Virus record (IMG/VR): IMGVR_UViG_3300028146_000023
Location: 1 to 37,378 of that record
DNA length: 37,378 nt
Reading direction: 5' to 3' (one strand)
From: a virus
The notes under the pieces were generated by a model. That model had not been told where the DNA came from and ran no database searches. It saw only the letters and a program-made list of their open reading frames with translations. Shown here piece by piece: positions 8,087-33,883 of the stretch. How positions within the stretch are numbered: position 1 is the first letter of the stretch; each line of letters begins with the position of its first letter. Both the position numbers and the translations under genes were made by a program.

Positions 8087-8425
8087 ATGGCAAACAAAGT
8101 CCTGCAAGTCGCCACAGCGGCGCTCATTGATTCAGCCGTCACTGGCCCGGTTATCGGAAATGTATTCTCCTTTGCTGAGCATAAAGGCAATGGAGACTTC
8201 AGCGCCATCTTTCAAGCAGTCGGTACCGTTACAACTATTACGGCTCAGCTAGAGATTAGCTTGGATGGCGGCACGACATGGGCGATTGCGGTTACCGGCG
8301 CAAACTTCTTCCCAACGAACGCGGTAACGAACAAAGCGGTAACTCCGGTTATTTGTGGCGCTTTGTATCGCGTGAACTACACGGCGGCTTCCGGTTCAAT
8401 CAATCTATGGGCATGTTCAAACTAA
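8087..8425 (+). CDS. small beta-rich virion-type protein
   Basis: This 112-aa protein contains a LEISLDGGTTWAIAVTG stretch, similar to the S-x-D-G-G-x-T-W motif of BNR/Asp-box blades and to small phage head or tail decoration proteins. A smooth alternating pattern suggests a beta sandwich. No export signal is present, unlike the following gene. It overlaps that gene by 19 bases. The role is inferred from context. Confidence 0.55.
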   Translation: MANKVLQVATAALIDSAVTGPVIGNVFSFAEHKGNGDFSAIFQAVGTVTTITAQLEISLDGGTTWAIAVTGANFFPTNAVTNKAVTPVICGALYRVNYTAASGSINLWACSN

Positions 8426-10770
8426 GATTTCTCGCATTGCTTCTCTTTGCTTCTGCCGCATCCGCGCAGACGCAAACGCTTGTCTCTGGAACGCTTACTG
8501 ACCCGAACGGTGTGGCCTATTATCCGGCAACGGTGAAGGCGTGCCTTTCTCCTTCGACGCTCAATCCCACGGTTGGCGGCAATCCCGTAAACACCAATGC
8601 TGGAACTCCTTATTGCGTTGGGCCTGTGAATACCAGCGGGTCAGGGTTCTTCTCAATGGCGCTTTGGCCTAACGCCAATATCGTTCCCGGCTCAACAACT
8701 TGGATATTCAGCGTACACGCACTAGGCACACCACCACCGTCCGGCAATGGGACACTAGACTTTGCAAGTGCTGGCGTGACGATTTCTGGCGCAACACAGG
8801 ACGTAAGCACAAACATTAACAGCGTGGGAACGGCGCAGCTTAGAGCTAGTGGCAGTGCTGCACAAAATTCCACTCCGGGTACGCCGGGCATCAACTCAGT
8901 CCCTATCACTTCCGGCCTAATGGCGGAATATCGTCTTTTACCGACTGAGACGCCTAGCGCATGTGTGGATTATTCAGGGAATGGGCGGAATTGTACAGGA
9001 ACGGTTGGTACGGCTCCGACCATCATCGCTGGCAGCGGCGGTATTCTGGTCAATGGAAACGGCGCGCTCTCTCTTCCCGCTTCGCTCAATTCCGCGCTGT
9101 CTTATTCGTTTTACGCATGCTTTCAAAATCCAGCTAGCTCGACAGCGGCCAACTGGATTATCGCCAGCAGTAGCGGGCAGACCGGACTAGAGGTGGTGAC
9201 GAACAACCCTGCCATCAATACACTCTTCGGCGGTAGCCGTCTTGCAACCATCGCCAACAACGCAATTAAGACGCAAACGAACTGGCCATTCAACGGCTGC
9301 GGCACCATCACCGAAACGATGGACACGACTGACCACATCTATTGGAACGGTCAGGAAACCACTCTGTATGCATCCACTGGAACCTCTGCTGGCGTAGCAG
9401 CTGGAAATTATCAGCTCGGCGGGATTGCCGGAACCTACTGGCAGGGACAAATCTACTATGCCGTTTTTTATAACCGGGTCATCACGCAGACGGAAGCTCT
9501 TTCCATCGCCAACTGGCTGAATATCTATATTCCAAACCGTGGAGGCATTGCGCCGTTTGTTGGCCTAGTAAGCGCCAACGACATGATTCTTTCCGCGGGA
9601 GATTCAGAAACGGAAGGCTTTGGATTAACCACGCGCTGGCAATCGCAAGTTGTATTGAATTCCGCTTTAGGTTGGTCGACCGTGACCGAGCCGGTAGCTA
9701 ACAACGGACAGCCAAGCAAGTTATTGAACGCGATGGCAGCCGACGCCAATTACGAAATCTGGCCAATGTATCGCATCAAGAATCCCGCACCGGGTATCAG
9801 TGGACAGGGCGGAAGAAACGTTGTCATTGCATGGGGCGGAACGAATGATTGCAATGCGGCCAACAGTGCCGCGCAAATCGAACAGCATCTTTTTGCATTC
9901 TCTGGCAGTGTGAAGCAAGCTCCTTGGAGCAATCCCACTCTCGTATTTACTTCGATGATGGACAGGTCGGGCCTTTCTACTTGCAAAAATAACTGGAACA
10001 CGTTGTTGCGATTGAACGCGCCCGGTGCCGGGGTGGATTACCTCGTTGACATGGCCAGCAATCCCCTTCTAGGAGCGGATGGGGCAAACGCTTCGGCCAC
10101 GTGGTTTCAGGCAGACCATACCCACTGGGCGCAGGTTTCGGCTACCAACTTTGGCGCTTATTATTTCGGCAGGGCAGTAAACGCTTTGTTTGGGCCGAGC
10201 AATTTCAGTGGCGCGAACACTTACACCACGACTTCAACGGCGGCAACAGCGACCACAAGCGGAACATCTTCCGGCCAAACGGCAAGCGTAGTTATGGGTT
10301 CAAATCCGTGGGTTGCTGGACAGTGCGCCGTCGTAACGGGCGTGACTCCTGCTGGCTATAATTCCCCTGCCGGACAGTGTTGGTTCATTCTAACCGCGAA
10401 CGCCACAACGATTACCTACACGACTACTGGCTCGAATATCGGCCCGATAACCGTACAAGGAACCGTTCAAGCTGCACAAGAGCTTGACCAAGACACTCTC
10501 TTTGAAGTTCTTGGCGGTTCGGCGGCTGGCCCTTCGCACATCATCCAGACTTGTCAAGGCAGAGACCCGAACCTGACGAAGCTGGTCATGATTACGAATA
10601 CGAATGCAACGCCGTGGACAATCACTTCACTGGTTAGCGAGACCATCAACGGTGGAGCAACGTTCACGACGCCGGTAGCTTCCGCGACGAATCATCCGGT
10701 TATTGCATTGAAACCAATTCTGACAAGTCCAAGCGCTGCAGGATGCACTTGGCAGGCGAGTCTCCAATGA
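8407..10770 (+). CDS. secreted SGNH hydrolase with LamG-like domain (fibre-like)
   Basis: About 787 aa. Residues 1-20 are a Sec signal peptide (MFKLRFLALLLFASAASA|Q). A carboxypeptidase-regulatory-like beta domain follows (VSGTLTDPNGVAYYPATVKA). Next comes a concanavalin/LamG-like domain (SGLMAEYRLLPTETPSACVD ... YYAVFYNRVITQTEALSIAN). From ~390 there is an SGNH/GDSL hydrolase: block I AGDSETEG with nucleophile S400, block III WGGTNDC at 476-482 (G and N of the oxyanion hole), block V D570-H571-T572-H573. The C-terminal ~190 residues are a beta region. SGNH enzymes deacetylate or de-esterify sugars. The start is ATG 8407 or 8413. Its place between terminase and portal and its signal peptide are unusual for a phage fibre. 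The product is either exported or a receptor/depolymerase spike. Confidence 0.85.
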   Translation: MGMFKLRFLALLLFASAASAQTQTLVSGTLTDPNGVAYYPATVKACLSPSTLNPTVGGNPVNTNAGTPYCVGPVNTSGSGFFSMALWPNANIVPGSTTWIFSVHALGTPPPSGNGTLDFASAGVTISGATQDVSTNINSVGTAQLRASGSAAQNSTPGTPGINSVPITSGLMAEYRLLPTETPSACVDYSGNGRNCTGTVGTAPTIIAGSGGILVNGNGALSLPASLNSALSYSFYACFQNPASSTAANWIIASSSGQTGLEVVTNNPAINTLFGGSRLATIANNAIKTQTNWPFNGCGTITETMDTTDHIYWNGQETTLYASTGTSAGVAAGNYQLGGIAGTYWQGQIYYAVFYNRVITQTEALSIANWLNIYIPNRGGIAPFVGLVSANDMILSAGDSETEGFGLTTRWQSQVVLNSALGWSTVTEPVANNGQPSKLLNAMAADANYEIWPMYRIKNPAPGISGQGGRNVVIAWGGTNDCNAANSAAQIEQHLFAFSGSVKQAPWSNPTLVFTSMMDRSGLSTCKNNWNTLLRLNAPGAGVDYLVDMASNPLLGADGANASATWFQADHTHWAQVSATNFGAYYFGRAVNALFGPSNFSGANTYTTTSTAATATTSGTSSGQTASVVMGSNPWVAGQCAVVTGVTPAGYNSPAGQCWFILTANATTITYTTTGSNIGPITVQGTVQAAQELDQDTLFEVLGGSAAGPSHIIQTCQGRDPNLTKLVMITNTNATPWTITSLVSETINGGATFTTPVASATNHPVIALKPILTSPSAAGCTWQASLQ

Positions 10771-11147
10771 GACGGAATAGATTCACTATCGCTGAACTTA
10801 TTGGGGTTGTTATATTTCTTGCTATTTTCTGCTTTTGGTGGATTCGGCAAGAGGCTCGCGCGCAGAGTTACCAATCCACTTCTCCGCCTATGGTGTTTAC
10901 GAGCACCGCGATTGGAGGCGGACTTCTAGCTATCGGCGCAACAGTCTCAACGACCGTAAACGTCACTGGCGCTCAAGTCGGAATGCCGTGCGTGGCTGCG
11001 GCAACTGATGGTACGGACATGGTTGCACTTGGATTTTTGCCCACTTGCACGGTAACTTCTGCTGGCGTGGTTACGGTGCGCGGCATTGCAGTTATCTCCC
11101 TGACTCCGGCGAGTAAAACCTATTCGGGAAGGGTGTTTCCAAACTAG
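10767..11147 (+). CDS. small exported beta-domain protein with pilin-like N-terminus
   Basis: 126 aa from the ATGA overlap at 10767. Residues 1-33 are basic, then hydrophobic (RRNRFTIAELIGVVIFLAIF, then CFWWIRQEARA), followed by a possible AxA|Q cleavage site (ARA|QS). The FTIAE stretch has Phe at +1 and Glu at +5 exactly as in type IV pilins, but the -1 residue is Arg and not Gly. The remainder (~90 aa) is a compact beta domain (TTVNVTGAQVGMPC ... GVVTVRGIAVISLT) similar to small phage tail-associated domains. It precedes the portal with a one-base overlap. It is either a type II membrane protein or secreted. Confidence 0.65.
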   Translation: MRRNRFTIAELIGVVIFLAIFCFWWIRQEARAQSYQSTSPPMVFTSTAIGGGLLAIGATVSTTVNVTGAQVGMPCVAAATDGTDMVALGFLPTCTVTSAGVVTVRGIAVISLTPASKTYSGRVFPN

Positions 11148-13549
11148 TGGCGACTAACCCCACAACGCTGACGGCACAAAATCCAGGTCAACCAGACCCC
11201 AACAATCTTACGCGCGAATTTTGGTATCCACTTTGGCAATTGCTCGTAGACCTTGAACGCATAGACGACATTCCGCGCAGGGAAGAAGTAAAACTGATTC
11301 TACAGCGCAGGCTTTACATGCGCGGCGAACAGTATTGGTGGTACAACAACGATTCAGGCGCATGGTATCCGCCAAACGTTCTGCCTGCTGGCTTCGATGC
11401 CAACGATGTCGTAAGCCAGAACTTCCGCAACGTGACAAACATATTTCAGGCTACCGGGCTTTCGCTTTCGAGTGTCATCACGCAAAACAATACGCGCAGT
11501 CAGTTTTACCCGGAAAAGGCTTCTGACCCGCAAGACGTGGCTACGGCCAAGAACGGCTCGAAGTTTGTTGACCAGCTGCACCGGAAGAACGACTGGGCCA
11601 AGCGCATGGATGAGTGCGGCTATTTCATGTGCACAGACGGCTATTTTGGGGCAAATATCCGCTATGTCAGCGATGGCGACAAGTTTGGGTACGATGAACG
11701 CGACATCCTCGCTCCGGTAGAGGTCCCTATCGGGCAGTCTACCGTCTCGTGCCCATCCTGTGGCTATGAAGCGGAAGGCTCGGCAGAAACGCAGCCAACG
11801 TGCCCGGATTGTGGGCAGCCGCTCATAGAGAACCCTCCCCCAACGGCAACAGCACTGCAAACAGTCGGAACAGCGCAGATTCCCAAAGGGCAAGAGATAG
11901 TGACGATGGTTCCGGCGCTGCAACTCCGTAGAACGGCCTATGCGGATGACCAAGCAGACGAACTTTACAAAGACTGGTTGACGGATATAGACAAAGCTGT
12001 GGTTATAGCGACCTATGGCGATTTGCCGGACGCCGACCAGCCCGGAAAGACGAAAGAAGACCAGTTAAACGGAGCAACGGGAGGAGATGATTCAGGGACA
12101 GCGGCTTCGTATGAGCGTATCGCTCGCAGGCTTTTGTATCTTGGCACAGGCAGACATTCAGGAGTGACACTTGAGGGCCTCGGAACGTTTCAACGGGCGT
12201 GGATTCGCCCAAAGGCGTTTTATCGAATCATCGACAAGAATCTTCGTGCGCAGTATCTCCAGATGTATCCAAAGGGCGTCAAGATTGTTTTCTACAATGG
12301 CCAGTATTGCGAATCGAAGGCGGAGGGCATGGATGAGGCGTGGGAGAGTATGCACACGATGCCCGGAGAAGGGTCGATCCGAGAGACGCTGATTAGTTCG
12401 ATTCTGCCGATTCAAGACCAGCTGAATGATTGCACCAACCTACTGTTTGAAATCTGCATGAATGGCGTACCGGAAGGCTTTGCTTCTTCTGACTTACTGG
12501 ACTTTGAGGCGCGGAACGAACAAACAGCCTCGGCGGGAAATGTGACGCCTGTAACTTTGGCACCGAATCAGGTGATTGGCCAGAAACTCATGTTTACACA
12601 GGCCGTAGAGCCTTCGATGGCCATGATGAAGTACATCGACATGCTGATGAATGCCATTCCTCAGTTCCTATCAGGCAACTATCCGGCTCTTTTTGGCGGA
12701 GATACAGGCTCAAACGACACAGCGGCAGGCATTGCGATTCAGAGAAATCAGGCAATGGGCCGAATCGGACGGGTTTGGCGGAATTTTCAGCAATTTCTGG
12801 CGAATGTCGATGCAAAAGCAGTGAAATGCTTTGCCAATAACCGCACTGAGGATATGGAAGTCGCCCAGCAGTCCCAAACAGGGGAATTTGACACGGATTT
12901 CGTGCGGCTTGAGGACATGCAGGGCAATATCGTGGCTTTCCCTGAAGTAGATGCTCAGTTTCCGGTTCTGCAGGCCGATGTACGGGCACTTTTACTCAAT
13001 ATGTTCAACGGAGCGAACCCAGTTTTCCTGCAGACGATTGCCACGCCTGAAAATCTTGAGTATTTGTTCCGAATGATGGGGATTTCGGACGTGGAAGTGC
13101 CCGGAGAGCAGCAAAGAAAGAAAACCAATCTCGATATTCAGCAGCTTTCGCAGGAACAGCCACAACCCGGTGCTCCAGGCGTTGGACCTGATGGTAAACC
13201 GACTCCTCCGCAGCCTGTTCCTAGTATTGCGCCTGACCCAAACATTGACGATTTGAAAGTAGCGGCAGCGACAGCAAAAGCATGGCTCATCAGCGACAAA
13301 GGATTGCAGGTGAAGCAGACAAATCCTGATGGCTACATCAACGTGTATTTGTTCTCGAAGGCCTGCGCAATGATGGAGAAACAACAGGAGATGCAACAAG
13401 CGGTTGCGGCAATGGCGATGCAAGACCAGGGACCAATGGCCGATGCCGGAGGCGCTGGAGCCATGTTGCCGCCCCCTCATTTGAAGCCAGCGGAGAAGAA
13501 TCCGCCTAAACCGAGTTCTGCTTCTGGAAGTCCAGGAGCGGGAGCATAG
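11147..13549 (+). CDS. portal protein with zinc-ribbon insertion
   Basis: 800 aa, starting at the GTG that overlaps the previous stop by one base. The portal dodecamer forms the DNA gate at one capsid vertex. Evidence: position between terminase and scaffold/capsid; a long helical N-terminal stem (FWYPLWQLLVDLERI; VKLILQRRLYMRGEQYW); a wing with RNVTNIFQATGLSLSSVI; and a C-terminal helical part (TAAGIAIQRNQAMGRIGRVW). Unusual: residues ~202-225 carry CPSCGYEAE ... CPDCGQ, a four-cysteine zinc ribbon. The C-terminus is Pro/Gly-rich and disordered. The length is at the upper end for P22-like portals. Confidence 0.85.
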   Translation: MATNPTTLTAQNPGQPDPNNLTREFWYPLWQLLVDLERIDDIPRREEVKLILQRRLYMRGEQYWWYNNDSGAWYPPNVLPAGFDANDVVSQNFRNVTNIFQATGLSLSSVITQNNTRSQFYPEKASDPQDVATAKNGSKFVDQLHRKNDWAKRMDECGYFMCTDGYFGANIRYVSDGDKFGYDERDILAPVEVPIGQSTVSCPSCGYEAEGSAETQPTCPDCGQPLIENPPPTATALQTVGTAQIPKGQEIVTMVPALQLRRTAYADDQADELYKDWLTDIDKAVVIATYGDLPDADQPGKTKEDQLNGATGGDDSGTAASYERIARRLLYLGTGRHSGVTLEGLGTFQRAWIRPKAFYRIIDKNLRAQYLQMYPKGVKIVFYNGQYCESKAEGMDEAWESMHTMPGEGSIRETLISSILPIQDQLNDCTNLLFEICMNGVPEGFASSDLLDFEARNEQTASAGNVTPVTLAPNQVIGQKLMFTQAVEPSMAMMKYIDMLMNAIPQFLSGNYPALFGGDTGSNDTAAGIAIQRNQAMGRIGRVWRNFQQFLANVDAKAVKCFANNRTEDMEVAQQSQTGEFDTDFVRLEDMQGNIVAFPEVDAQFPVLQADVRALLLNMFNGANPVFLQTIATPENLEYLFRMMGISDVEVPGEQQRKKTNLDIQQLSQEQPQPGAPGVGPDGKPTPPQPVPSIAPDPNIDDLKVAAATAKAWLISDKGLQVKQTNPDGYINVYLFSKACAMMEKQQEMQQAVAAMAMQDQGPMADAGGAGAMLPPPHLKPAEKNPPKPSSASGSPGAGA

Positions 13550-13596
13550 AGCAAATCGCCTAGTCAGCGTTAAATGACGCAGCTCTAAGGAGAAAA

Positions 13597-14874: not shown

Positions 14875-14881
14875 TTTTTAG

Positions 14882-14975
14882 CGGGGATGCCAAAAAGGAG
14901 ATTTAATGGCTTCAGTTGAGGCAAACGTTCAAGGTTTAGAACGCGAGCTGATTGTTTACAAGGATGGCATCCCCG
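14882..14975 (+). repeat. 11-bp inverted repeat enclosing the capsid start
   Basis: CGGGGATGCCA (14882-14892) and its exact complement TGGCATCCCCG (14965-14975) flank the AAGGAG site and ATG (14906) of the major capsid gene, with 72 bases between. In mRNA the arms could pair and hold the initiation region as a loop, presenting or tuning the start site. The right arm codes for DGIPE. Confidence 0.45.
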
Positions 14976-16198
14976 AACTTTTGGAATTGGATGCCCCGCT
15001 GTACAACCTCATGGAAAAGCAGGAAGCCGACCCGGCTTCGAACCGCGCAACCCGTATTCCGTTGCTCGTTTCGGTCGGCGGCACTCTCCAGCAGGTGAGT
15101 ATGGACGGTGGCTCCGTTGGCGATACGGGCGGGCCGGTGTGGCAGACCGCTACACTGACTCCGTTCTATTACACGTCAGGCTTCAGCTACACCCTGCTTG
15201 CGAAGTATGCAACCACAGGAGCGGAACGCGGCGTGAAGTCGGCAACGGGCGAAGTGATGCGTCTGGCGGTCAAGTACTTCAAGACCGGGCTAGACATGGT
15301 GATGAACACGGCGGGCAACGGCGTAATCGGCACGATTACTTCGGTGTCCACCAATACCTTCACGATGACCACAGACGGATTCAAGGAAGAACTCGTCCTG
15401 ATTGGCCAGAACGTGCAGGTATACAACGCGGCGCTCACCACCAACCGAGGCACTTCCACAGTCACGGCAATCGACCGCATTGGCCACACGATTACGGTAG
15501 CGGCGGCACCGGGCGGCACTATCGCCACGGACTTGCTGGTAATCGGCGGACTCTCCGGCACACTTACAGCGCAGTCTTCCTTGTTTGGCATCCAGTACCA
15601 CCAGTCGGACGCGACTTCTGGCACTTGGCTTGGCCTGAACCGGGCAACTGTTCCGCAGGTTGTGACGCCTTCCGTCAACGCGAACTCTTCCGTGCTCACC
15701 ACGGGAATGATTCGCGGGGCGCTCAACCGCATCCGCATCAACTTGGGCGACACTTTCTTCAACACGGAGATGACCAAGCTGACGGCGTACATGCACTTCG
15801 CACAGGCTGACTCTTACGAGTCGATTGCACTGCTCATCAGCAACATCTGGAAAGACCCGACAGGGAACCAGAACGTCGATCTGATGTTCAACAACCAGTC
15901 GGGACTCAAGATGTCGAACGTTCCTGTGGTGCAGTCCATCCATCAGGACCGTACGCGCATTGATTTCCTCTGCCTCGGCTATTGGGGGCGCATCGTGGCC
16001 ACCGATACCGGCTTCCTGACGATTGGCGACAAAATCGTTTGGCCGAAGATTGATACCTCGACGGTTCCGGGCGGCTTGCTCGCTACGGAGCAGTTTTGGT
16101 TGAAGGCTGGTCTCCAGATGTACAACAGAAACCCCGCAGGCTCTAGCTACATCAAGTCGCTCGGTCTGCCGCTGATTGGTTCCAGCAGCATCTATTAA
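14906..16198 (+). CDS. major capsid protein (HK97-type fold)
   Basis: 430 aa, preceded by AAAAAGGAG. It follows the scaffold and precedes adaptor genes, the usual position of the shell protein. An N-terminal helix (ERELIVYKDGIPELLELDAP), a G-loop/E-loop region with glycine runs, and a helical spine (GMIRGALNRIRINLGDTFFN) fit an HK97-fold capsid. Residues ~137-225 look like an inserted beta domain (GTITSVSTNTFTMTTDGF ... TVTAIDRIGHTITVAAAPGG), comparable to capsid insertion domains. There is no N-terminal delta or protease signal. Confidence is high from context and size. Confidence 0.85.
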   Translation: MASVEANVQGLERELIVYKDGIPELLELDAPLYNLMEKQEADPASNRATRIPLLVSVGGTLQQVSMDGGSVGDTGGPVWQTATLTPFYYTSGFSYTLLAKYATTGAERGVKSATGEVMRLAVKYFKTGLDMVMNTAGNGVIGTITSVSTNTFTMTTDGFKEELVLIGQNVQVYNAALTTNRGTSTVTAIDRIGHTITVAAAPGGTIATDLLVIGGLSGTLTAQSSLFGIQYHQSDATSGTWLGLNRATVPQVVTPSVNANSSVLTTGMIRGALNRIRINLGDTFFNTEMTKLTAYMHFAQADSYESIALLISNIWKDPTGNQNVDLMFNNQSGLKMSNVPVVQSIHQDRTRIDFLCLGYWGRIVATDTGFLTIGDKIVWPKIDTSTVPGGLLATEQFWLKAGLQMYNRNPAGSSYIKSLGLPLIGSSSIY

Positions 16199-22601: not shown

Positions 22602-22609
22602 GAGGAAGC

Positions 22610-22882
22610 ATGTCTTTTCTTGGAATGTCGATGCGCAAGCCGGGGCAAGGCTATCAGGATGAAAACGGAATCGACATGGGGCAATCGCAGTATGGCGATA
22701 TGCCTAGTTTTTTGGATGCTGGCCAGCAACAGCCGAACGCTCCCGGAGCGAGACAGATGTTTCTAGGAGGCATAAAGAACGGCAAACCCGGTGGGAACAG
22801 GTTGATGCAAGGACTATCTGGATTTTCAGGCTCAGGCGGTTTCATGGGAGGATTGGGCGACGTGGCGAAGTTTCTCATCTGA
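22610..22882 (+). CDS. small Gly/Gln-rich internal virion protein candidate
   Basis: 90 aa, strong AGGAGGAAGC site before the ATG. The protein starts MSFLGMSMRKPG, is Gln/Gly/Pro-rich and disordered in the middle, and ends in a glycine zipper (GFSGSGGFMGGLGDVAKFLI) that could be a membrane-active helix. Together with its neighbours it is part of the probable ejection set. The function is inferred only. Confidence 0.5.
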   Translation: MSFLGMSMRKPGQGYQDENGIDMGQSQYGDMPSFLDAGQQQPNAPGARQMFLGGIKNGKPGGNRLMQGLSGFSGSGGFMGGLGDVAKFLI

Positions 22883-22888
22883 GGGCTT

Positions 22889-24235
22889 ATGGCGACCATT
22901 AGGAAAATTCTGAATCCGCAGACCTTCGCAGGAGCATTCAGCCCGTGGACAAGCGGCACGTCCAGCTATTCAGGCGATGAAAACAACGCTCCTGATGATG
23001 CCATGCGTCCTGCTCCGGCTCCAGCCAATGCGCGGAGCGGAGTTTCTTTGTCTCCAGCTTTCAACCCGAATACCAGTGCGCAGCCTAACGTGACGCGAGA
23101 CATCTACCAACCGCAACTCAGAGACATCAGTTCGCGTTTACAAGAAGCTTACACCCCACCGGAAGTAGGCGTTGGCGGAACGATTCGGCATGTTCTGGGC
23201 GCACTAATGTCACAGAGAAATCCCCAGCTTGGCAGCATCATCAGCGGGGATTATCAAAGACAACGACAGATTGCCGGACTCACAAAGCAATATGGTCTAA
23301 CGGAAGACGCCATTAATCAGGACAGAGCACAGAAGGCGGCTGAACTTAATCAGCAGAACATCGGTTCAGAGATTAGAGAGCGCGGACGAGCAAACGACAT
23401 TCGCCAACAGGTAGCCGATACAAAGGAAACTCCCCCGCCTAAGACACCTGAAGAACAGGCTTATGCTACAGAGATTGCCAAAGGCACTGACCCGCTGGCG
23501 GCTCTTGAGAAAGTTAAGAACGTAATCAACAAACAGCCCAAGCCTCCTTCGGAAGAGGATAAGGCTCTTTCAGACTACTTGCAGGCGCACAATCTTCCCG
23601 ATAGCCCTGCGAATAGGGACAAGGCTCGCAGCGTTCTAAAGACACGTGACCGCAAAGCGACTGACCCCGATATTGCGGATTTGAACAAGCAATTGAAACA
23701 GGCGCAACTTGTAAAGGCGCAGGAACCAACGGCTGATGAGCAGCGCCGTGCCGACCTTGCGCGAAACATGAATGAGAACCTCGACCAACTAGAGGAAATC
23801 GCCAATCGCAGGCCGGATTTGTTCGGCCCTATTGCCGGACGAATGACGCAAGCCGCTAACGTGATTGGGACAAGCGACCCGGACAAGGCCAAATTAAAAG
23901 CCATCAAGGAATATCTGGGCATGGCTTCTGTGGGCGCTCACGCCATGCGAAACGCGCAGCACGTTGCCACGGCAGCCGATGCAGTGATGAATGGATTTAC
24001 AAACTCACCCGAAGCGATGAAAGCAGCTATCGGAGAAGCGCGAAAGAGTACGGGCACGTTCTTTGCAGATGAGAAACGCAGAGGAAATAAGGCTACTGGT
24101 GGCACTGCACCTGTAGGCGGGGAAACGGCTAAAGATTTTGGCGATGCAGGCGGAAAACCGGAAGGTGCGACTGGAAAACTTTCGGATGGAACGCCCGTGG
24201 TAGTTAAGGGCGGAAGGATTGTGGCCCAACAATGA
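22889..24235 (+). CDS. internal virion protein candidate (448 aa)
   Basis: Low-complexity N-terminus (~1-70), then long helices (REL-type: QPQLRDISSRLQEAYTPPEV; NLDQLEEIANRRPDLFGPIA) and a Gly/Lys/Ala-rich C-terminus. Many Gln and Asn, no cysteine. Fits an ejection or internal core protein. The next gene starts within its stop (ATGA). Homology is not verified. Confidence 0.5.
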   Translation: MATIRKILNPQTFAGAFSPWTSGTSSYSGDENNAPDDAMRPAPAPANARSGVSLSPAFNPNTSAQPNVTRDIYQPQLRDISSRLQEAYTPPEVGVGGTIRHVLGALMSQRNPQLGSIISGDYQRQRQIAGLTKQYGLTEDAINQDRAQKAAELNQQNIGSEIRERGRANDIRQQVADTKETPPPKTPEEQAYATEIAKGTDPLAALEKVKNVINKQPKPPSEEDKALSDYLQAHNLPDSPANRDKARSVLKTRDRKATDPDIADLNKQLKQAQLVKAQEPTADEQRRADLARNMNENLDQLEEIANRRPDLFGPIAGRMTQAANVIGTSDPDKAKLKAIKEYLGMASVGAHAMRNAQHVATAADAVMNGFTNSPEAMKAAIGEARKSTGTFFADEKRRGNKATGGTAPVGGETAKDFGDAGGKPEGATGKLSDGTPVVVKGGRIVAQQ

Positions 24236-25299
24236 GCACAACGCCACAAGTCCTATGGGACCAAGTACAGTGGGACGATGAACCTAAGAAAAAGCCTAGT
24301 TTGCTTAATCGTTTGAATGATTGGTACACAAAAGAAAGCGATGTGCCGAACGACCCCTATGCGATTGGAAAAGGAGTGCTTCCTGCCGGAGGTTCGCAAA
24401 AAGAAAGTCCTCGCAGTGCCACCATGAATACGGCATTGATGAGCGCCGTCCCTCTTACAGGACCAGCTCTTGCGGCACCCATTGCAACCGGATTGGGACT
24501 TGCTGGAGCGGCAGTAGGCAGCAAGTTCGGCAGATATGCAGGCGAAGCGATGGGAGCACCAGACATCGGAGAAGATGTTGGTGGCCTTATGGGTGGCCTT
24601 ATCAGCGGAATGGGCGGAACTAAACTCAGGGAAGCCAATAATTCCGTTGCGGGTGCGTTAAGAAAGCCCGCAACTCCGATGCAAGCGGAACAAGGGATAC
24701 CGGGAAGCGTCAAACCGATTCTTCCTGAAATGCTGCAAAAGTACACGATTCCAGACTGGGCCATTCCTAAAGGAGAAGTCGGCACGCCGACAAATCCGGG
24801 GCCGTTTAATCGCGTTCCGAATCGCGTTTCTCCGCAGTTTCGTGGCGACCCATTCGCTCCGCCAGCACAGGCTGCACCGATTGCCACGAATCCTTTCACG
24901 CCAAAAGGCGAAATTCCTTACGGCAGCGTGATTCAATTGCCGGAACCGAACGAAGCCGTTTCTCCAATCAATCCGAAGTACATGGGTTCCGTTCCTCGCA
25001 ACGAACTTGTAGGCATGGGGAAAAGCAGGACACCGGGCGCTGGCACACAGCTCCAGCAAATCGGCAATAAGGTGATTTACACGCCGCCAGAAGGATTCAA
25101 TCCCCCGAAAGAAGTCACCAGCTTTTCTTCAGAGGGAAAGCCCTACACAATTTCTAACGCAATGGGCATCCGCTGGGCAAAAACTCCGGGGATTCCTGAC
25201 ATTTCAATTCCCAACGGCATGGCTGACGCGGACATCCCCGCTTATATAGCAGAGAAGCAAAAGCTGCAGATAAACGGCAGCAAGGGGCTATTTCAATGA
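24232..25299 (+). CDS. glycine-zipper membrane protein, ejection candidate
   Basis: 355 aa. Residues ~68-115 form a long Gly/Ala-rich hydrophobic stretch (ALAAPIATGLGLAGAAVGSK; GGLMGGLISGMGG) of the glycine-zipper kind, able to insert into membranes; the remainder is proline-rich and probably extended (FNRVPNRVSPQFRGDPFAPP). This is what is expected of a DNA-ejection channel component. No lytic transglycosylase motif is visible. It overlaps the next gene by four bases. Confidence 0.5.
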   Translation: MSTTPQVLWDQVQWDDEPKKKPSLLNRLNDWYTKESDVPNDPYAIGKGVLPAGGSQKESPRSATMNTALMSAVPLTGPALAAPIATGLGLAGAAVGSKFGRYAGEAMGAPDIGEDVGGLMGGLISGMGGTKLREANNSVAGALRKPATPMQAEQGIPGSVKPILPEMLQKYTIPDWAIPKGEVGTPTNPGPFNRVPNRVSPQFRGDPFAPPAQAAPIATNPFTPKGEIPYGSVIQLPEPNEAVSPINPKYMGSVPRNELVGMGKSRTPGAGTQLQQIGNKVIYTPPEGFNPPKEVTSFSSEGKPYTISNAMGIRWAKTPGIPDISIPNGMADADIPAYIAEKQKLQINGSKGLFQ

Positions 25300-28200
25300 A
25301 ACGATGGTTTCTAGCACTGGCGCTTCTTTTCCCTGCTCTGGCTTATGGGCAGGGAAGTAACTATCAGGCCATCATTCTTGGCTCGACAGGAAGGCCAGTT
25401 GGCGGAGCGCAAGTTACTGTCTGTATTGCTAGTTCTCCCGGCGTTCCTTGCTCGCCTACGGTGAATATCTTTCAGGACCAAGCCCTTACAATTGCCCAAT
25501 CCAATCCCATCATCACGGATGCTTTCGGGAACTTCTCCTTTTGGGCTGCTCCGGGAACTTATGAATACACCGTCACGGGGTTAAACGTCGTTGCGCATGG
25601 GCCATTTACAGTCGTTCTGCCTTGCATCGTAGGAGCTTCGTGCGCTTCCGCTGGAGGACTGCCGAATAGTTCCGTTGCTTTCTCTTCTACGCCTTCCTTC
25701 GCGGCCACGACCAACGCCAGCTACTCCACAACCCTCACAGGCAACATCACGGCCATCACCATCACAGGGACGCCAATAAATGGAAACCTGTTGCGCTTCG
25801 CCTTCGATCAGGATGCCACCGGTGGCCGCACAGTAATTTGGCCGGGCAATTTCGTCTTCACTGACGACTTTGCGTTTCGCACGATGCCGCTTGCGAAGAA
25901 TAAGATTACCTTCGTCTACAGCGGCACGAACTGGCACCAACTCGAAAACATACCGGACGGGGCTTTCGATTATTATCCGGTCACGTTTTCAGCGACTCCA
26001 ACGTTCTCCAATTCCCGCGCCGCTGTTTTCGATATGACGCTGAGTGGGAATGTCACTTCATCGGTGTTTACGACGACAGGGCGTGCAGGCACGCAATTCA
26101 TTCTGAATGCTTGCCAGAATGGGGCTGGTGGCTGGACGTTTGCCTTCCCCGGCAACGTGAGCAACCCGCAAGGTTTTACATTTGACACACTCGCTACGCA
26201 CTGTAACCGCATTCTCTATTCATGGACAGGTTCTTTGTGGATTGGCATCGGCGGAGGCTCTGGAGGCGGCGGCGGAACTCCCGGCAACCCAGTAAACACG
26301 TTGCAGAAAAATTCGGCTGGTTCTTTCGCCTCAACAGGAGTCTCAGAAGTTGGCACAACGCTTTCGATTGACGATGACACGAACTCAAAAGGCCCGAACC
26401 CCTATTTCGACATCATGCGCTATGGGGGATATTTCGAACCTTCAAACGCTCCATTGACTGCTTCCTGTAGCATCAACTCCGCCTCCACGACGCTTACTTG
26501 CGCGACGAACACAAGTTTTCAGAATGGGCATGGCATCGTCATTCCGAAGGCTGGACTGCTTCCCCTCACTAGAAACGCTTCGTTCCCCGCGGCTCCGGCA
26601 GTGGGAACCGTCACGCCGCTTTTCGTTTCGGCTGGTTCGACCACTTACACGTACTGCTTCGTGCTTGAAGACTATTTTGGCGGTCTGACAGCTTGCGGCT
26701 CGAATGGTTCAACGACTCTCGGCGCGGCCACGCTTGGTGTCAACACGGTTCCTATAACTGGCGTAGTTCGCGCCAGCGGCCTAGATACATTCACCTGCTC
26801 GACCAACTGCAATGTACAGGTCAACTCGCAGGTACAAATCTCCGGCTTCACTGGCGGCGGAAACTCGCTCGTCAATGGCACTGTCGTGGTCAACTCGCTG
26901 CCCGATGCCACGCACTTCACGATTCTGGCGAACGGGCTGCCCGATTACACGGAATCGGCATCAGGGACTCTTTCCGTCAAAGCCTGCAACGAACTGTTTC
27001 CTTCCGGCCTGCTCACGCAAGAGAGCGTGATTTTGCGGACATGGATTTATCGGAATGGAACACTGGTAGGTGTCTCTCCCGGCCAAGACCCGTACTTTCA
27101 AGATTGCGCACAAGGTGTCTCCGGCCAGCCTTCTTACGTTCCAACCTCCGCGCCGGGTGCGGCGCAAGCGGGCTATCTCGCCACGACGATATCCTCTGGT
27201 GGTGGCACAACGACAATGACGCTGGCGGCTGCTGCGGGCACGACCGTTTCGAGCGTGACGGCGACACACTCGAATGACCAAGCCCTTCTCGCGGCTTATA
27301 CCGCCGCTGTTGCAGCGCATGGCGGCGTTATTCGGATGCCGGTGATTCCAGCAGGCGGGTTTAATTCGTTCCCCTTCAACGCGACGACGAACTTCCAAGC
27401 GGTTACGAACTCAACTGGCTCGACCGTGCGGCTCGAAGTCGCAACCGCAACGCTCAATCAACCGTGGGTAAACCCAGGAGCTTTTGCAATCGAAGGTATC
27501 CCGCAATCCTCGACCTCGTTTGAATACAGCCCGTTGGGTGTACTGAGCGGCCCTGCCCACCCGCTGATTCTGGCTAACGGCACGGCTGGCAACGGCGGCG
27601 TAACGATTAGCAAGGTCAAACTCGTCACCACGCAGACAGGGCAAAGCAGTTTCGTTTCCGACCATAATTTGCGCGCAGGCGGCAACGTCGGTTTCATATT
27701 CAACGACGTAGCTTTTAGCGGAAATTTCGCTTCGGCCATCGTCCTCAAGGGCGGCTTCGACTTTTGGTTCAATCGCGGCACTTGCGCGATGACGGACGTT
27801 GCAGGCTGGGCGGCTCATCCTTGTGCTGAATTTACAAATGCTTCGACGTATCTGAGTGCCAGCGGAACGCAGATGCCGGGGCGCATTTACGAAGACCAAA
27901 TGAACTTTGCCGGTGGCACGGCGAACCAAGTAGACAACTATCCGCTATCGAATCAACCCGGCCCCTCAAGCTCGGGCGGCGGCGATATTTACATCACGCG
28001 GAATCTGCACGAATCAAATGCCGGTCCACATTTGCGCGTGGCTGTGGGCGTTGGCACATCTCTAGGATTCGGAGCGGTCTATAAGTTAAATGGCGTCAAT
28101 TTTGCTGACCAGACAAACGGGTTGCATCAGCCGCTTCTTGAACTCACCGGAAGCCCCGGTACGGGTGGCGTCATCCTCGAAGGCAATCAGGGTGCAGGTC

Positions 28201-30920
28201 AGAATCCCACTATTCTCGGTGGTGGCCCTGCTGCGACGGCTCCAGTCTGCATCAACAACATTTTTACGGTTGGCTGTGGCGCGACACCGAATCAGAGCAT
28301 CAACGGGCAGAACTCGATAAACGATGGCGGAACATACGGAGCAACAAACGGCGGAAGTATGGGCTACCTCATGGGTACGCCAGCGGCTCCGGCTTCGTGC
28401 GTTGTCTCGGCTGGCGGCTCGGTGCCAATAGCGGTTGGAATACAATATTTCATCGTTGCGACAGATCGGCTGAATTTTTCTGTCAATCCATTTGGCGGGC
28501 TTACTCTTCTCGGGCCCTCTTGCTCCGTAACAACAACGAGCGGACAGCAGACCGTGACGATTACGCGGCCGACACTTCCCGCTGGCGCGGTTGGCTGGAC
28601 ATTGTGGCGCGGCGGAGCGGAAGCGAATATCCCAAGCTGCACTACGGCGCTCCCTGCTTCTCAGCTTACTTTCGTAGATACATTTTCATTCACTTGCACA
28701 TTCTCCGCACCGTCATCGAATACGGCTTTCACTTCAGGCATAAACTCAAGTGGCACGACTTCTGCGAATGCGTTCATGTCCGGCTGGTCAATGGGCCAGC
28801 GAACGCTTACCAGCGGCGTGACGCTTGGAAGAAACGATGCGACAGTCTTCGCCAACACGAATGCCGGTTCATTCGCCATCACGCTTAACACGGCGCTAAC
28901 GAGCCAAATTCACATCATCTACAACCTCTCAACCGGCGGAAACACGCTGACGATCCAAACGACTTCCGGAAATATCGACACCGCATCCACGACAACGATT
29001 GCAAACGGCTGCGCAAAGATGTTCACGGTAGACGGGACGAACGCTGAGACGCTGGGTACGAGCTGTGGGAGTGGTGGAAGCGGGAACGTTGCGAACGCGA
29101 ACCAGTATGCTACGCCGTACTATTCGGCTCCCGGCTCTGCAAACAGCATTGCTGGCGTTGCGCCGGCGACAGCAAACAGCCTCTATGTAACTTGCCACAA
29201 CGTTGTGGCAAGCGTTGGCGTTCCCCCATCTGATTGCTTGCCGGGAATCCCGGTAAATTCGCAGACCACAAGCTACACGCTTACGACCAGTGACCGTGCG
29301 GGATACATTATATTTTCTTCCTGCACGACACCAACTCTCACGCTTCCCGCAATCAGCGGAACCACCGCTTCAAATCTTCCATTCCGCGTTTTCAACGGTT
29401 GCTCCGGCAATCTAACTATCGCGCCGACGACGCAGACGATCTCAGCAGATGGCGGCGGACAGGTAAGCTCCATTATCGTCTTCCCTAACTGGTGGGCGAC
29501 AGTCACCGAAGACAGTACGCCGAACTGGTTCGCCATTCGCACCGCGAGTCTCGCTGGATACGCCACCGGTTGCACGGCGACGAACTTCAACGCTTCGACC
29601 GGAATCGTTTGCGCGACGTTGCCGGTGGTTTCGGGCGTCAACTCCCAAACTGCGACCTACACGGCAGTGGCGGGAGACAGCGGCAAAATTATCGTAATGG
29701 ATTGTTCTAGCTGCACCTTGAACCTTCCGGCTTCTCCTCCCGCTTCGCCCTGGGGCATCTTCATCGAAAATGTAAATGCGACTTCACTGACCGTAAACCG
29801 CAATGGCCTCAACATCGACAAAGCAGCGTCGAATCTTACACTCACGCAGAATCAGGGTGTGTGGGTCACGCATGACGGTTCGAACTACTTCACTTCTCGC
29901 GGAGTAGGAGGCGGTGGAGGCGGCGGGGCCGTGCGGTGGGATCAAATTACCGATCCTTCCGGTAATTTCCTTCGTTTGATGGGCGCGAATTTGACGGAAT
30001 TTGATTACACCTCTGCGCTGGCAAACGCTTGGAAGATCACGAATACGACGGCAGCAACCGTCACGACACCACAGAGTTCTCCACAGTTCAACGTCGTATG
30101 CGGGCAAGAGTGGACGGGAGCGGGCGCGAGCACCGAAAGCTGCCTCCGGTTACAAATTATTCCAGCGACTGGATTAAACGTACAGCCGACGGTTCACTAC
30201 GATCTAACCACATCATCCACCAATGGAAATCCGGCGCATATTTTTAGCGGGAAGGTTTATACCTCTTCAACTGGTGCATTCGATGTCGGCCTGCAAGGAA
30301 GCAGGTTGGCCGCTATGGACACGAGCGGTTTTGATTCGTCTTGCGGTGCGCGCGGCCACTACTTCTCGACAACGGCAAACATCGACGGCGGCGCGAACGC
30401 TGCCGGTATGGGCTGCCTGAAGGCGAATCTCATCACCTTCAACGGCCCTGGCATCAATGACGAACTAGCGATTTTCGTTGGCGCGAATAGCCAGCGGCAA
30501 GTTGCTTCGAGCTACACAAATGCAACGACAACGCCATCCACGTTCCAGACGTGGTCGCTCGCAGCCTCGGCGCACAACTACGCTTATCACTGCGATCTGG
30601 TTTATCAGTCGTCGGCTTCGACAGCGACCCTTGCACTTTCGTTCAATGCGTCAGTAGCGCCTACGTCCCTCATGGGACACGCGCGAATCTTCTCGACGCT
30701 CACCGGCACAAGCACCGACGCGACGGTGACGACAACCTCTTCCGGCAACGTCGCGGTTCTGACCGGAGCAACTCCGAACGCAACCTCGACCAATTACGAA
30801 GCCACTTTTAGCGGAACGATTGAATGGGGCTCGTCAGCTGGAACGTTTGCGATTCAGGCAGCAGCAGGCGGAACTGGAACCGTGACAATTCTGAGGGGCA
30901 GTGCATGCTATCTCTACTAA
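25296..30920 (+). CDS. giant multidomain tailspike/fibre with signal peptide
   Basis: 1874 aa. Residues 1-19 are a Sec signal peptide (MKRWFLALALLFPALAYG|Q). Domain order: carboxypeptidase-regulatory-like (20-105); two related beta repeats (~126-215 and ~226-320) ending in FVYSGTNWHQLEN and LYSWTGSLWIGIG; a Gly linker (~318-332); a beta domain with HTL-like core (~480-560); a right-handed beta-helix of tailspike/pectate-lyase type (~660-1010, beginning DQALLAAYTAAVAAHGGVIR); a Cys-bearing FN3-like region (~1030-1150); three fibre repeats (~1165, ~1325 and ~1453 onward; last two with IxxxxCxxxTLxLPA); and a C-terminal beta sandwich ending VTILRGSACYLY. No catalytic site is assigned. Paired cysteines fit an oxidising compartment. 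Confidence 0.8.
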   Translation: MKRWFLALALLFPALAYGQGSNYQAIILGSTGRPVGGAQVTVCIASSPGVPCSPTVNIFQDQALTIAQSNPIITDAFGNFSFWAAPGTYEYTVTGLNVVAHGPFTVVLPCIVGASCASAGGLPNSSVAFSSTPSFAATTNASYSTTLTGNITAITITGTPINGNLLRFAFDQDATGGRTVIWPGNFVFTDDFAFRTMPLAKNKITFVYSGTNWHQLENIPDGAFDYYPVTFSATPTFSNSRAAVFDMTLSGNVTSSVFTTTGRAGTQFILNACQNGAGGWTFAFPGNVSNPQGFTFDTLATHCNRILYSWTGSLWIGIGGGSGGGGGTPGNPVNTLQKNSAGSFASTGVSEVGTTLSIDDDTNSKGPNPYFDIMRYGGYFEPSNAPLTASCSINSASTTLTCATNTSFQNGHGIVIPKAGLLPLTRNASFPAAPAVGTVTPLFVSAGSTTYTYCFVLEDYFGGLTACGSNGSTTLGAATLGVNTVPITGVVRASGLDTFTCSTNCNVQVNSQVQISGFTGGGNSLVNGTVVVNSLPDATHFTILANGLPDYTESASGTLSVKACNELFPSGLLTQESVILRTWIYRNGTLVGVSPGQDPYFQDCAQGVSGQPSYVPTSAPGAAQAGYLATTISSGGGTTTMTLAAAAGTTVSSVTATHSNDQALLAAYTAAVAAHGGVIRMPVIPAGGFNSFPFNATTNFQAVTNSTGSTVRLEVATATLNQPWVNPGAFAIEGIPQSSTSFEYSPLGVLSGPAHPLILANGTAGNGGVTISKVKLVTTQTGQSSFVSDHNLRAGGNVGFIFNDVAFSGNFASAIVLKGGFDFWFNRGTCAMTDVAGWAAHPCAEFTNASTYLSASGTQMPGRIYEDQMNFAGGTANQVDNYPLSNQPGPSSSGGGDIYITRNLHESNAGPHLRVAVGVGTSLGFGAVYKLNGVNFADQTNGLHQPLLELTGSPGTGGVILEGNQGAGQNPTILGGGPAATAPVCINNIFTVGCGATPNQSINGQNSINDGGTYGATNGGSMGYLMGTPAAPASCVVSAGGSVPIAVGIQYFIVATDRLNFSVNPFGGLTLLGPSCSVTTTSGQQTVTITRPTLPAGAVGWTLWRGGAEANIPSCTTALPASQLTFVDTFSFTCTFSAPSSNTAFTSGINSSGTTSANAFMSGWSMGQRTLTSGVTLGRNDATVFANTNAGSFAITLNTALTSQIHIIYNLSTGGNTLTIQTTSGNIDTASTTTIANGCAKMFTVDGTNAETLGTSCGSGGSGNVANANQYATPYYSAPGSANSIAGVAPATANSLYVTCHNVVASVGVPPSDCLPGIPVNSQTTSYTLTTSDRAGYIIFSSCTTPTLTLPAISGTTASNLPFRVFNGCSGNLTIAPTTQTISADGGGQVSSIIVFPNWWATVTEDSTPNWFAIRTASLAGYATGCTATNFNASTGIVCATLPVVSGVNSQTATYTAVAGDSGKIIVMDCSSCTLNLPASPPASPWGIFIENVNATSLTVNRNGLNIDKAASNLTLTQNQGVWVTHDGSNYFTSRGVGGGGGGGAVRWDQITDPSGNFLRLMGANLTEFDYTSALANAWKITNTTAATVTTPQSSPQFNVVCGQEWTGAGASTESCLRLQIIPATGLNVQPTVHYDLTTSSTNGNPAHIFSGKVYTSSTGAFDVGLQGSRLAAMDTSGFDSSCGARGHYFSTTANIDGGANAAGMGCLKANLITFNGPGINDELAIFVGANSQRQVASSYTNATTTPSTFQTWSLAASAHNYAYHCDLVYQSSASTATLALSFNASVAPTSLMGHARIFSTLTGTSTDATVTTTSSGNVAVLTGATPNATSTNYEATFSGTIEWGSSAGTFAIQAAAGGTGTVTILRGSACYLY

Positions 30921-33883
30921 AAAAACTGCCCTTACTGCTTCTCTTCGCTCCTGTAGTGGCAGCGCAATACACTACGCCGAGCGGAGGCTTCGACACCTAT
31001 CACGGACTCGCGGGAACGACTTGCACGCACGGTACGGCGACAGCGATGTCGCTGGATACGATCACGGTGAGTGGCAATCAGAATCGTGTGTTCTGCGACT
31101 TTTCGAATCACGTTTACTACCTGAAAGGCTTCTTCACTTTCGACAACACGCAACCTGGCGGCACAGATGAGTTCGGCCATACCTACAATTTCTACACGAC
31201 GGCGAAGTACGGAACACAACAAGCATGGGCCGACGCTGCGCTCGCAAAAATAATCAGTTGGGGCTACACCGGGCTGCTCCCCGGCCGCGCCACGACCGTG
31301 ACGAATCCGTGGACGACGGCGAACCCAGTTCCTTTTATCGCGGGAGCGGATGTCTCGCACTACAGCGTCTCGAATCCGCAAGGCTATGCGCACGTTGGCT
31401 GTGACCTGCCAAAAGACCTTTCCACGTCGCTCAAGACGACGACATTCAGCGGAGCGACAGGCTTCAACCTCGTGGACTACGACAGCCCATGCTGGGGCAT
31501 CTACGTTCGTGCATACATGGACAACGACAATGCCTTCGCTGTGAGAAGCCAATCGGCGGCGATGAAGCACTTCCTTGCTGGTGTGGCGCTGACCGATGCA
31601 GACAATTCTCACTGCACCGGCGCCGGCCCGGATTTCGTTCCCGCGAACGGGAATTATGACTTTCGCTGCGGCACGATGGGGCTCTTTGCTCCGCCTGTTC
31701 AATTTGCAGATGGTGGGAATGGACAAGCCTACTCGGACGGAACTGTTTTCATCAAGAAAACGTTGCACGACAATGCGATGACCGCGCATACGAACATCGC
31801 AGGCATCAACGCGGCATGGGGAAGTTCTTATACGACTGATCTGACGAGCGGAAATTGTTTTGGGTCTTTGCAACCTGCTTCTGTTTGCCCTTCCCCTGGC
31901 GCTGCATTCGCTCTTGGAACAGGCGATGGTGTGACAACGACTTTCACAGGCACGATTCCGAACACTGTCATTTCGAAGTGGTCTCTCTATGTGGCAAAAA
32001 ATGGAGTCAAAGTCGGCGGAGACATCAGCGGCGGCGGCGTAGGGACACTGTTCGGGCCGGGCGCGGCGAATGGTTTCGGCGGAACGATAAATTATTCAAG
32101 CGGTGCAATTTCCGTGACGTTCACGACGGCCCCGGCAAATGGAGCGGTTCTCACGGTCGGCTATATCCAAAACGGCTGGGGCATCGGCACGGGACTGATG
32201 GACGAAGACTGCCGCGCAGGACATACCTACTGCGGAAGCTCTCTGGTTTTTCTAACGGGCATGTCTTCTGGCCTGCAGGCGGATGTGAATGCAACAACGA
32301 AATCATATGCGGGAGATTATGCCGGGCAAGCGACAACAGCGATCTCAGGATGGGCCGGAGCGAATGGTTTTACGGGGAAAGTTCTGTTTGCTGGTATCTA
32401 CGCTCTCGGCGCATGGGGCGCGCCGCCAGACAAATTTTTCATGCAAGGGCTTGCCCCCTATCAGGATGTGATTATCGCCTCTGGCGCTGGAAACGGATTC
32501 TCGCACTGGACGCAGCCGATGCTCGACTACACGCGCACAGCGTTTGGCAGCGACGTGGCGATCATCGAATCGAGTTACAGAGTTTCAAACCGCGATTCTA
32601 ACTTCGCGTGGTATTCGCAGCCTGTAACGGGAAGCGGGACGACAGCCACAGCGACGATGACACTCCCGATCAACTTCTCGACCGGTTCGCTGATTGACAC
32701 GTTCTGTACGAACTCCGCTTTCAATCGCTTGCAAGTGCATCCCGGATCAGTGAACACCGGAACAGGCGTTCTGACGTGGACGACTTCTGGCGGCGTCTCT
32801 GGTTCCACGACTTGCACAATCATGTATTCCGACAACAACAACGGCGGATTTACTTCGCAGGTTGCGCGTGGAACGGATTACAAGAATGACATCGGTGTGG
32901 CTCCGACCGTGGCTTATACGGCGAGCGGCGTCCGCATGTACGTTGGCATGTCCCAGTGGGCATACCAGGACTATCACAACGAAAAAGAAAATTGGGGAGT
33001 GACGAACGTTCGGGATAACCCCTACAATGGCATCGACAACAATGGAACGGGCACGTTCGCCTGCCAAGCTCCCGACGCGGCTCACACTTGCGGCGGAGAA
33101 GCGGCAGACCATTTGAACGGCGGGCCGCAAGGCGACTTCCTCGACCTCGCGGGACAGGCGCACGTCCTGATCGACAATTACTTTCTCGCAGCGGCTTCTC
33201 CTCCCGCCGTGACGCTCAGTCCATCATCGGCAGCGTTTGGAAATGCAGCGCAGAATACGCCCGATACCGGCTGCAATGTATCGCTCATCCCTTGCGATAT
33301 TCGGCTGACGAACACGGGCGGCTCGACGCTCAATATCACCTCCGCTGTGATTGTCACGGGCACGCACTTTTCCATCGCCAGCACGACTTGCGGGCCAACG
33401 CTTACAGCGGGAAGTTTCTGCGATGTAGTCGTGACCTTCACACCGCATGTATTGGGCGCTCTTTCTGATACGCTTCGCTTCACCACGAACGCGAGCACCA
33501 GCCCCGATAACGTTCCCCTCACAGGAACAGGCGTCATTCCAACCGCTCCAGCCGTGCAGATGGTGATGAATGTTTTGCCTCTGCCTGCGCAGCCTCCTAT
33601 CCCCGTTTTGACGAAACTAGCTCCCGCTAATACTTACCTCACGGCAAAAGGTTTCTCGCAGGACGGCATTTTGTTTGTGCCCAATCTCACCGTTACGGCG
33701 ACGGGTAGTGGATTCACTTCCACTACACAATGCTGGTTTGATGGCATAAATGTTCCTTGCGGTTGCAGTGCCACATCATGCACTATAACGCTCAGTCAAG
33801 CATCCGTGGCCATGCCTCTCGTAAAGACGGCGCATAACGTGGGGATTTCGAATCCGGCAGTCGTGGTACCGATAGTTCAATAG
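30905..33883 (+). CDS. secreted glycoside-hydrolase-like protein with ASH and TIG-like domains
   Basis: About 992 aa from ATG 30905, preceded by GAGGGG and overlapping the previous stop by 16 bases. Residues 1-21 are a signal peptide (MLSLLKKLPLLLLFAPVVAA|Q). Residues ~30-640 resemble a TIM-barrel glycoside hydrolase (VYYLKGFFTFDNTQ; YVRAYMDNDNAFAV; AIIESSYRVSN with an acidic residue that could be catalytic), interrupted at ~335-425 by a phage-type beta domain (GTGDGVTTTFTGTIP ... NYSSGAISVTFTTAP). A choice-of-anchor-D/ASH domain occupies ~768-880 (SPSSAAFGNAAQ; TCGPTLTAGSFCDVVVTFTP), then an IPT/TIG-like domain (~901-992). ASH-type domains abound in Acidobacteriota secreted proteins, pointing to host-derived parts. 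The hydrolase assignment is tentative. Confidence 0.65.
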   Translation: MLSLLKKLPLLLLFAPVVAAQYTTPSGGFDTYHGLAGTTCTHGTATAMSLDTITVSGNQNRVFCDFSNHVYYLKGFFTFDNTQPGGTDEFGHTYNFYTTAKYGTQQAWADAALAKIISWGYTGLLPGRATTVTNPWTTANPVPFIAGADVSHYSVSNPQGYAHVGCDLPKDLSTSLKTTTFSGATGFNLVDYDSPCWGIYVRAYMDNDNAFAVRSQSAAMKHFLAGVALTDADNSHCTGAGPDFVPANGNYDFRCGTMGLFAPPVQFADGGNGQAYSDGTVFIKKTLHDNAMTAHTNIAGINAAWGSSYTTDLTSGNCFGSLQPASVCPSPGAAFALGTGDGVTTTFTGTIPNTVISKWSLYVAKNGVKVGGDISGGGVGTLFGPGAANGFGGTINYSSGAISVTFTTAPANGAVLTVGYIQNGWGIGTGLMDEDCRAGHTYCGSSLVFLTGMSSGLQADVNATTKSYAGDYAGQATTAISGWAGANGFTGKVLFAGIYALGAWGAPPDKFFMQGLAPYQDVIIASGAGNGFSHWTQPMLDYTRTAFGSDVAIIESSYRVSNRDSNFAWYSQPVTGSGTTATATMTLPINFSTGSLIDTFCTNSAFNRLQVHPGSVNTGTGVLTWTTSGGVSGSTTCTIMYSDNNNGGFTSQVARGTDYKNDIGVAPTVAYTASGVRMYVGMSQWAYQDYHNEKENWGVTNVRDNPYNGIDNNGTGTFACQAPDAAHTCGGEAADHLNGGPQGDFLDLAGQAHVLIDNYFLAAASPPAVTLSPSSAAFGNAAQNTPDTGCNVSLIPCDIRLTNTGGSTLNITSAVIVTGTHFSIASTTCGPTLTAGSFCDVVVTFTPHVLGALSDTLRFTTNASTSPDNVPLTGTGVIPTAPAVQMVMNVLPLPAQPPIPVLTKLAPANTYLTAKGFSQDGILFVPNLTVTATGSGFTSTTQCWFDGINVPCGCSATSCTITLSQASVAMPLVKTAHNVGISNPAVVVPIVQ

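Follow-up and report, generated by a model that had tools for sequence, protein, structure and literature searches.

We have analysed the sequence of an uncultured soil phage, 37,378 bases in length, the whole of one IMG/VR virus record (the window), which contains a tailed-phage structural module, and have found that its fibre-like proteins begin with predicted Sec signals. The earlier note had proposed that fibre-like proteins are exported here as a coordinated set; this idea is supported, and the set reaches far outside the window, into related viruses and into cultured Tunturi phages, although the accompanying interpretation stands only in part, one of its explanations, capture of host genes, being rejected below. 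The reading that we prefer, held at little better than even confidence, is that these proteins are virion fibres or spikes that would be exported by Sec and attached to virions at or after lysis. Their export is well supported by the predicted signals, and the full course of cleavage, export and virion attachment is what we infer. The relevant features, from ORF-based gene calls, are as follows.

5396..6952, + strand: terminase large subunit (phrog_979, Terminase_3); context
8407..10770, + strand: g8407, predicted exported fibre-like protein of 787 aa, with a signal, a conserved N-terminal domain and an SGNH-hydrolase-like domain
8407..8466, + strand: predicted signal peptide of g8407, cut after A-S-A and before Q
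Residues 398-538 of g8407, about 9598-10020: SGNH-hydrolase-like domain (sub-threshold match to Pfam Lipase_GDSL_2)
10743..11147, + strand: small protein with a long anchor-like signal and a small conserved C-terminal domain (start at 10767, site A-R-A before Q)
11147..13549, + strand: portal-like protein, named by position, matching none of PHROGs/Pfam; context, used to find relatives
13597-14874: scaffold-like protein, named by position, without a family match
14906..16198, + strand: major capsid protein (phrog_14242); context
17601-18530: tail adaptor-like protein, named by position, without a family match
18921..21824, + strand: large virion protein without a signal (phrog_3287); context
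21999..25299, + strand: putative internal or ejection proteins without signals, preceding the fibre slot (assigned by position and synteny); context
25296..30920, + strand: g25296, predicted exported giant fibre- or spike-like protein (1874 aa) occupying the fibre slot, immediately downstream of the putative ejection proteins
25296..25349, + strand: predicted signal peptide of g25296, cut after A-Y-G and before a Gln that is invariant among eight aligned relatives
25350..25625, + strand: conserved N-terminal domain of g25296, with an invariant Cys43-Cys52 pair
30905..33883, + strand: g30905, second predicted exported protein, fibre- or enzyme-like, 992 aa, with homologues in G004 and L267
30905..30964, + strand: predicted signal peptide of g30905, cut after V-A-A and before Q
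Near residues 798-870 of g30905, about 33296-33514, + strand: HYDIN/choice-of-anchor-D-type domain

Neither a DNA search with the window nor a search with its portal and capsid proteins matched any known phage. Gene 24232, in the region of the putative ejection proteins, gave a weak tape-measure match in PHROGs, and the adaptor-like protein (17601-18530) and the large virion protein (18921-21824) have a short repeated domain in common, as seen from cross-matches in relatives. The terminase (5396-6952) is 97-98% identical in some relatives and only 27% identical in G005, the portal and capsid of which are 84-92% identical to those of the window, indicating that the terminase has been exchanged. 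Downstream of the fibre cluster, at 34475-34954, lies an HNH-endonuclease-like gene, a homologue of which (37-38%) adjoins the terminase in L003, L004, L005, L010 and L013.

The four signal-type N-termini claimed in the earlier note were all borne out, and they read MGMFKLRFLALLLFASAASA before QTQT at 8407, MRRNRFTIAELIGVVIFLAIFCFWWIRQEARA before QSYQ at 10767, MKRWFLALALLFPALAYG before QGSN at 25296 and MLSLLKKLPLLLLFAPVVAA before QYTT at 30905. The check by signal-peptide predictor suggested there was carried out with a rule-based scan of n-, h- and c-regions, requiring a positive n-region, a hydrophobic stretch of 8-16 residues and small residues at -3 and -1; all four were flagged, the only other flags on the + strand of the window being spurious ORFs and one internal start. 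The layout is that of Sec and signal peptidase I, clean, classical and predicted cleavable at 8407, 25296 and 30905, and anchor-like at 10767, where the signal is long, with WW and charges ahead of A-R-A and Q; the latter may possibly be a signal anchor or be cleaved slowly, and a homologue of this protein on contig L007 retains V-K-A before Q ahead of the conserved domain. The same N-terminus (10767-10832, MRRNRFTIAELIG) resembles a prepilin leader (FTIAE, with Glu at +5), a reading that was set aside as Gly at -1 is absent and the motif is absent from the L007 homologue. Purine-rich, Shine-Dalgarno-like stretches stand at the starts at 25296 (AAGGGG) and 30905 (GAGGGG); no such stretch accompanies the start at 8407, which overlaps the preceding gene at its 3' end.

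Relatives in IMG/VR were located via portal and capsid, and synteny across the module is common to them; capsid identity to the window is 74-93% in G004, G005, G007, G010 and G011 and 70-77% in G014, G015 and G017. When we asked whether homologues keep the signals, the fibre-slot gene proved to be signal-bearing in all eight, with at least one downstream gene also signal-bearing, even where it is non-homologous to g30905, and this holds across relatives whose fibres are only 39-55% identical. In an alignment of eight fibre-slot N-termini (A3), the Gln right after the cleavage site and a pair of Cys residues are invariant and the hydrophobic core varies. A comparable drift is seen between g30905 and its homologue on L267, a different virus contig of 71 kb (signals 47% identical, first 80 mature residues 86%), and between g8407 and its homologue in G004 (45% against 86%); in other pairs the comparison of signal and mature identity was mixed. 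The g8407 cassette, which lies between g8087 and the portal gene, is present or absent according to the relative and in G004 closes the fibre cluster, so that it travels as one piece. The N-terminal 164 residues of g8407 are retained in G005 (79%) above a different C-terminus, as in fibres that dock on the virion by the N-terminus. A conserved N-terminal domain and an exchangeable C-terminus are thus found together, docking on the virion itself being putative. The position directly after the putative ejection proteins is kept in the window and in the relatives, but the genes at 8407 and 10767 precede the portal gene.

When the scan was extended to fibres and core virion genes of the window and relatives, 27 of 27 fibres were positive (one from contig L007, two from contig L267 and all others from nine records, one of them the window), as against two of 125 core virion genes, both of them weakly scoring homologues of g18574; the fibre list was compiled while the relatives were being read, so that 27/27 is not a blind figure. 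Internal windows of the same fibres were positive in 1% of cases and shuffled N-termini in 17%. Cluster genes without a listed signal were checked separately, and two of them (in G015 and G017) hold a signal-like start within the called frame. Signal-bearing fibres are also richer in Cys, at 1.03-3.67% in 35 proteins against 0-0.85% in eight signal-less fibres (Mann-Whitney p = 7e-6, optimistic since homologues are not independent), and the Cys count is even in 29 of the 35 (p = 6e-5, optimistic for the same reason), so that the paired cysteines described in the earlier note hold as a trend. A high and mostly even Cys content is the look of proteins folded in an oxidising compartment, and the contrast between fibres with and without a signal favours another proposal made there, periplasmic maturation of disulfide-bonded fibres.

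Domain and structure searches gave little: almost nothing in PHROGs or Pfam matched the fibres, and a sequence search of solved structures returned sub-significant matches only, among them an agarase for g30905 (E 0.55). Pfam Lipase_GDSL_2 scored 19.6 bits on g8407 against a cut-off of 32.9, and 33.7 bits on its G004 homologue. The predicted structure of residues 1-1000 of g25296 is of low confidence, with weak similarity to phage endosialidase tailspikes, and the prediction for g30905, made from an input alignment of two sequences, was poor.

Among known phages, g8407 matched a single record at the protein level, at 28% identity: a gene for a tail fibre in Tunturiibacter phage Tunturi_5. The six Tunturi_5 proteins from gp337 to gp342, two of them small, all have signal-like N-termini, and the podoviruses Tunturi_1 and Tunturi_2, in which gp12 is nearly identical, have five signals within gp12-gp17, the proteins in question being labelled hypothetical, tail fibre, tail spike, pectin lyase or virion structural protein. 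These clusters resemble the window in that fibre or structural genes with Sec signals, mostly with Gln at +1, follow one another, in their richness in Cys and in their Acidobacteriota hosts, but they are unrelated to the window's clade by portal and capsid search, only g8407 being detectably similar. Relatives of Tunturi_1 gp12 were not found in IMG/VR, and Tunturi_1 gp12 and Tunturi_5 gp341 matched, among known phages, only the Tunturi phages themselves. The annotated tail fibres in the first 50 kb of Tunturi_3 and of Tunturi_4 have no signals; as Tunturi_3 is a podovirus of the same host strain as Tunturi_1 and Tunturi_2, export is not required by the host. The main text of the report on these phages makes no mention of signal peptides, tail fibres or mass spectrometry (PMC11924767).

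A capsid pattern scan of bacterial genomes gave no confirmed match, but a capsid profile search matched two of 396 Acidobacteriota genomes. In Granulicella mallensis X5P3 (E = 1e-54) the match lies in a prophage with the gene order of the window, the fibre of which has an N-terminal domain matching A3 (2e-8) and occupies the same slot, yet is itself signal-less, has neither of the conserved Cys residues and contains a single Cys in 693 residues; a signal-less fibre with the g25296-type N-terminal domain in the same slot indicates that this domain belongs to a fibre. In the second genome (G295) the N-terminal region of the fibre is signal-like and ends in A-L-A before Q, although it escaped the rule, and another gene begins MRFLSALLLLCCGWFG before Q; a third genome (G263) has three signal-bearing fibre-like genes in a row. 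Because capsid and fibre homologues occur in genomes of Acidobacteriota, the window's clade probably infects this phylum. In Terriglobus albidus (G021; L238-L239 joined, 19583-20425) there is also a lone fibre-like gene of 280 residues with a signal ending in A before Q and no phage module seen around it, possibly a prophage remnant.

In the Acidobacteriota samples (L246-L265, from G263, and L083-L162) predicted signals are followed by Gln more often than by any other residue, at 21-29% for the best site and up to 43% for any candidate site; the E. coli control amounted to two signals in 50 kb. In the window Gln stands at +1 in all four cases, and among proteins of the clade in 20 of 30 at some candidate site and in 15 of 30 at the first choice of the rule. 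A plant-type glutaminyl cyclase is present in Granulicella and in 15 of 60 sampled Acidobacteriota genomes, and together with the host frequency of Gln at +1 this makes the phage signals look tailored to the secretion pattern of the host. In Bacteroidetes, Gln at +1 after signal peptidase I cleavage is known as the Q-rule and exceeds 48% in nearly all species (PMC5837995, in which Acidobacteria are not mentioned). Gln ranks top in Acidobacteriota too but stays below 48%, short of the majority of substrates, and a weaker form of the rule may operate there. Host Oar-type proteins (L210, L211 and similar loci; G282, G128) have a signal, A or G before Q and a domain starting G-x-P-x-x-G-A, and are a possible source of the phage signal.

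The premise of the earlier note that export is unnecessary for virion fibres holds as a rule, which is what makes this case of interest. Our controls outside Acidobacteriota were few: T7 gp17 and crAss001 gp22-gp26 were checked for signals and have none. The P22 tailspike is not known to carry a Sec signal. These fibres and tailspikes are, like those of the window, large and modular, with a conserved N-terminus, a variable C-terminus and beta-helix or esterase-like domains, and in T7 the fibre also follows internal virion proteins; Sec signals and high Cys are what sets the window apart. Virion proteins with Sec signals exist in the coat proteins pIII and pVIII of filamentous phages, but there the coat is assembled in the membrane during extrusion, with no tail and no lysis. 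In a paper on Klebsiella phages SignalP was run on the fibres, and no signals were found outside lysis genes. WceF of Pantoea stewartii is exported, has a tailspike-like fold and acts on exopolysaccharide (PMC7949094), but it is encoded by a bacterial gene of an exopolysaccharide cluster, is exported by Tat and is not part of a phage. The open-access literature yielded no report of signal-bearing tail fibres in tailed phages.

The main rival, raised in the earlier note as secreted surface-modifying enzymes, is that the proteins, once exported, stay free of the virion, acting as released glycan hydrolases, esterases or adhesins that loosen exopolysaccharide, stop progeny sticking to debris or block superinfection. 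We regard this as less likely than virion attachment, but the evidence does not separate released enzymes from virion fibres: the SGNH-hydrolase match (sub-threshold in g8407, above cut-off in G004), the sub-significant agarase match and choice-of-anchor-D-type domain of g30905, the beta-helix and chitobiase-type domains of Tunturi_1 gp17 and the dispensability of the g8407 cassette in several relatives would all suit them. Tailspikes, too, are commonly glycan-active, and the proteins sit in the fibre slot, where no other large fibre candidate was seen, with an N-terminal domain that is kept over swapped C-termini and is common to the signal-less fibre in that slot; it is on these grounds that we favour virion attachment. 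That the hydrophobic N-terminus is an uncleaved helix for membrane or virion docking, on fibres that remain cytoplasmic, appears improbable, since this would fit the anchor-like 10767 protein, with charges after its hydrophobic stretch, but not the short n-h-c layout with a drifting core, the A-x-A/G site with an invariant Gln directly after it, the Gln preference that matches host secreted proteins or the high, mostly even Cys content of the same proteins.

Host gene capture, by which the fibre genes became joined to genes for secreted host proteins, leaving signals that persist as relics without a role, draws on the match between the host Oar-like signal with its G-x-P-x-x-G-A start and the first ~50 positions of the phage N-terminal profile. 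It is nevertheless rejected as very improbable, because the signals are kept across the clade in relatives with divergent fibres, are carried by several fibre families unrelated to one another as well as by unrelated phages, and drift while staying signal-like. The positives among shuffled N-termini and the start of g8407, with no Shine-Dalgarno stretch, might point to chance hydrophobic N-termini or mis-called starts, but for the set as a whole this is scarcely credible, being refuted by the split between fibres and core genes and by the conserved Gln; the 1% rate in internal windows and the good ribosome-binding stretches at 25296 and 30905 also stand against it.

The signals and their conservation, Gln at +1, the Cys contrast, the fibre-slot position and the modular layout are what is read directly from these genomes as predicted features. 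Our working model for virion fibres exported by Sec is that the proteins are receptor-binding tail fibres or spikes, probably glycan-active, which the infected host, most likely acidobacterial, would export via its general Sec route. Signal peptidase I would cut after A-x-A or A-x-G to leave an N-terminal Gln, which host glutaminyl cyclase may cyclise; the fibres would then acquire their fold and their disulfides outside the cytoplasm and join virions via the conserved N-terminal domain when the cell lyses. There is precedent for the last step in P22, finished particles of which take up spikes late, in vitro. In its broadest form, to which we give slightly under an even chance, the model envisages a split route in at least three tailed-phage lineages of Acidobacteriota, in which heads and tails are made in the cytoplasm, while the fibres leave by Sec, gain their disulfide bonds at the cell surface or in the periplasm and join the particles when the envelope breaks. 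If true, this would add a secretory assembly route to the tailed phages, a group in which fibre maturation is regarded as cytoplasmic, and would account for how these phages can carry disulfide-rich, glycan-active fibres. The signals may also serve as a sequence mark for the receptor-binding proteins of phages of Acidobacteriota, which are among the most abundant soil phyla.
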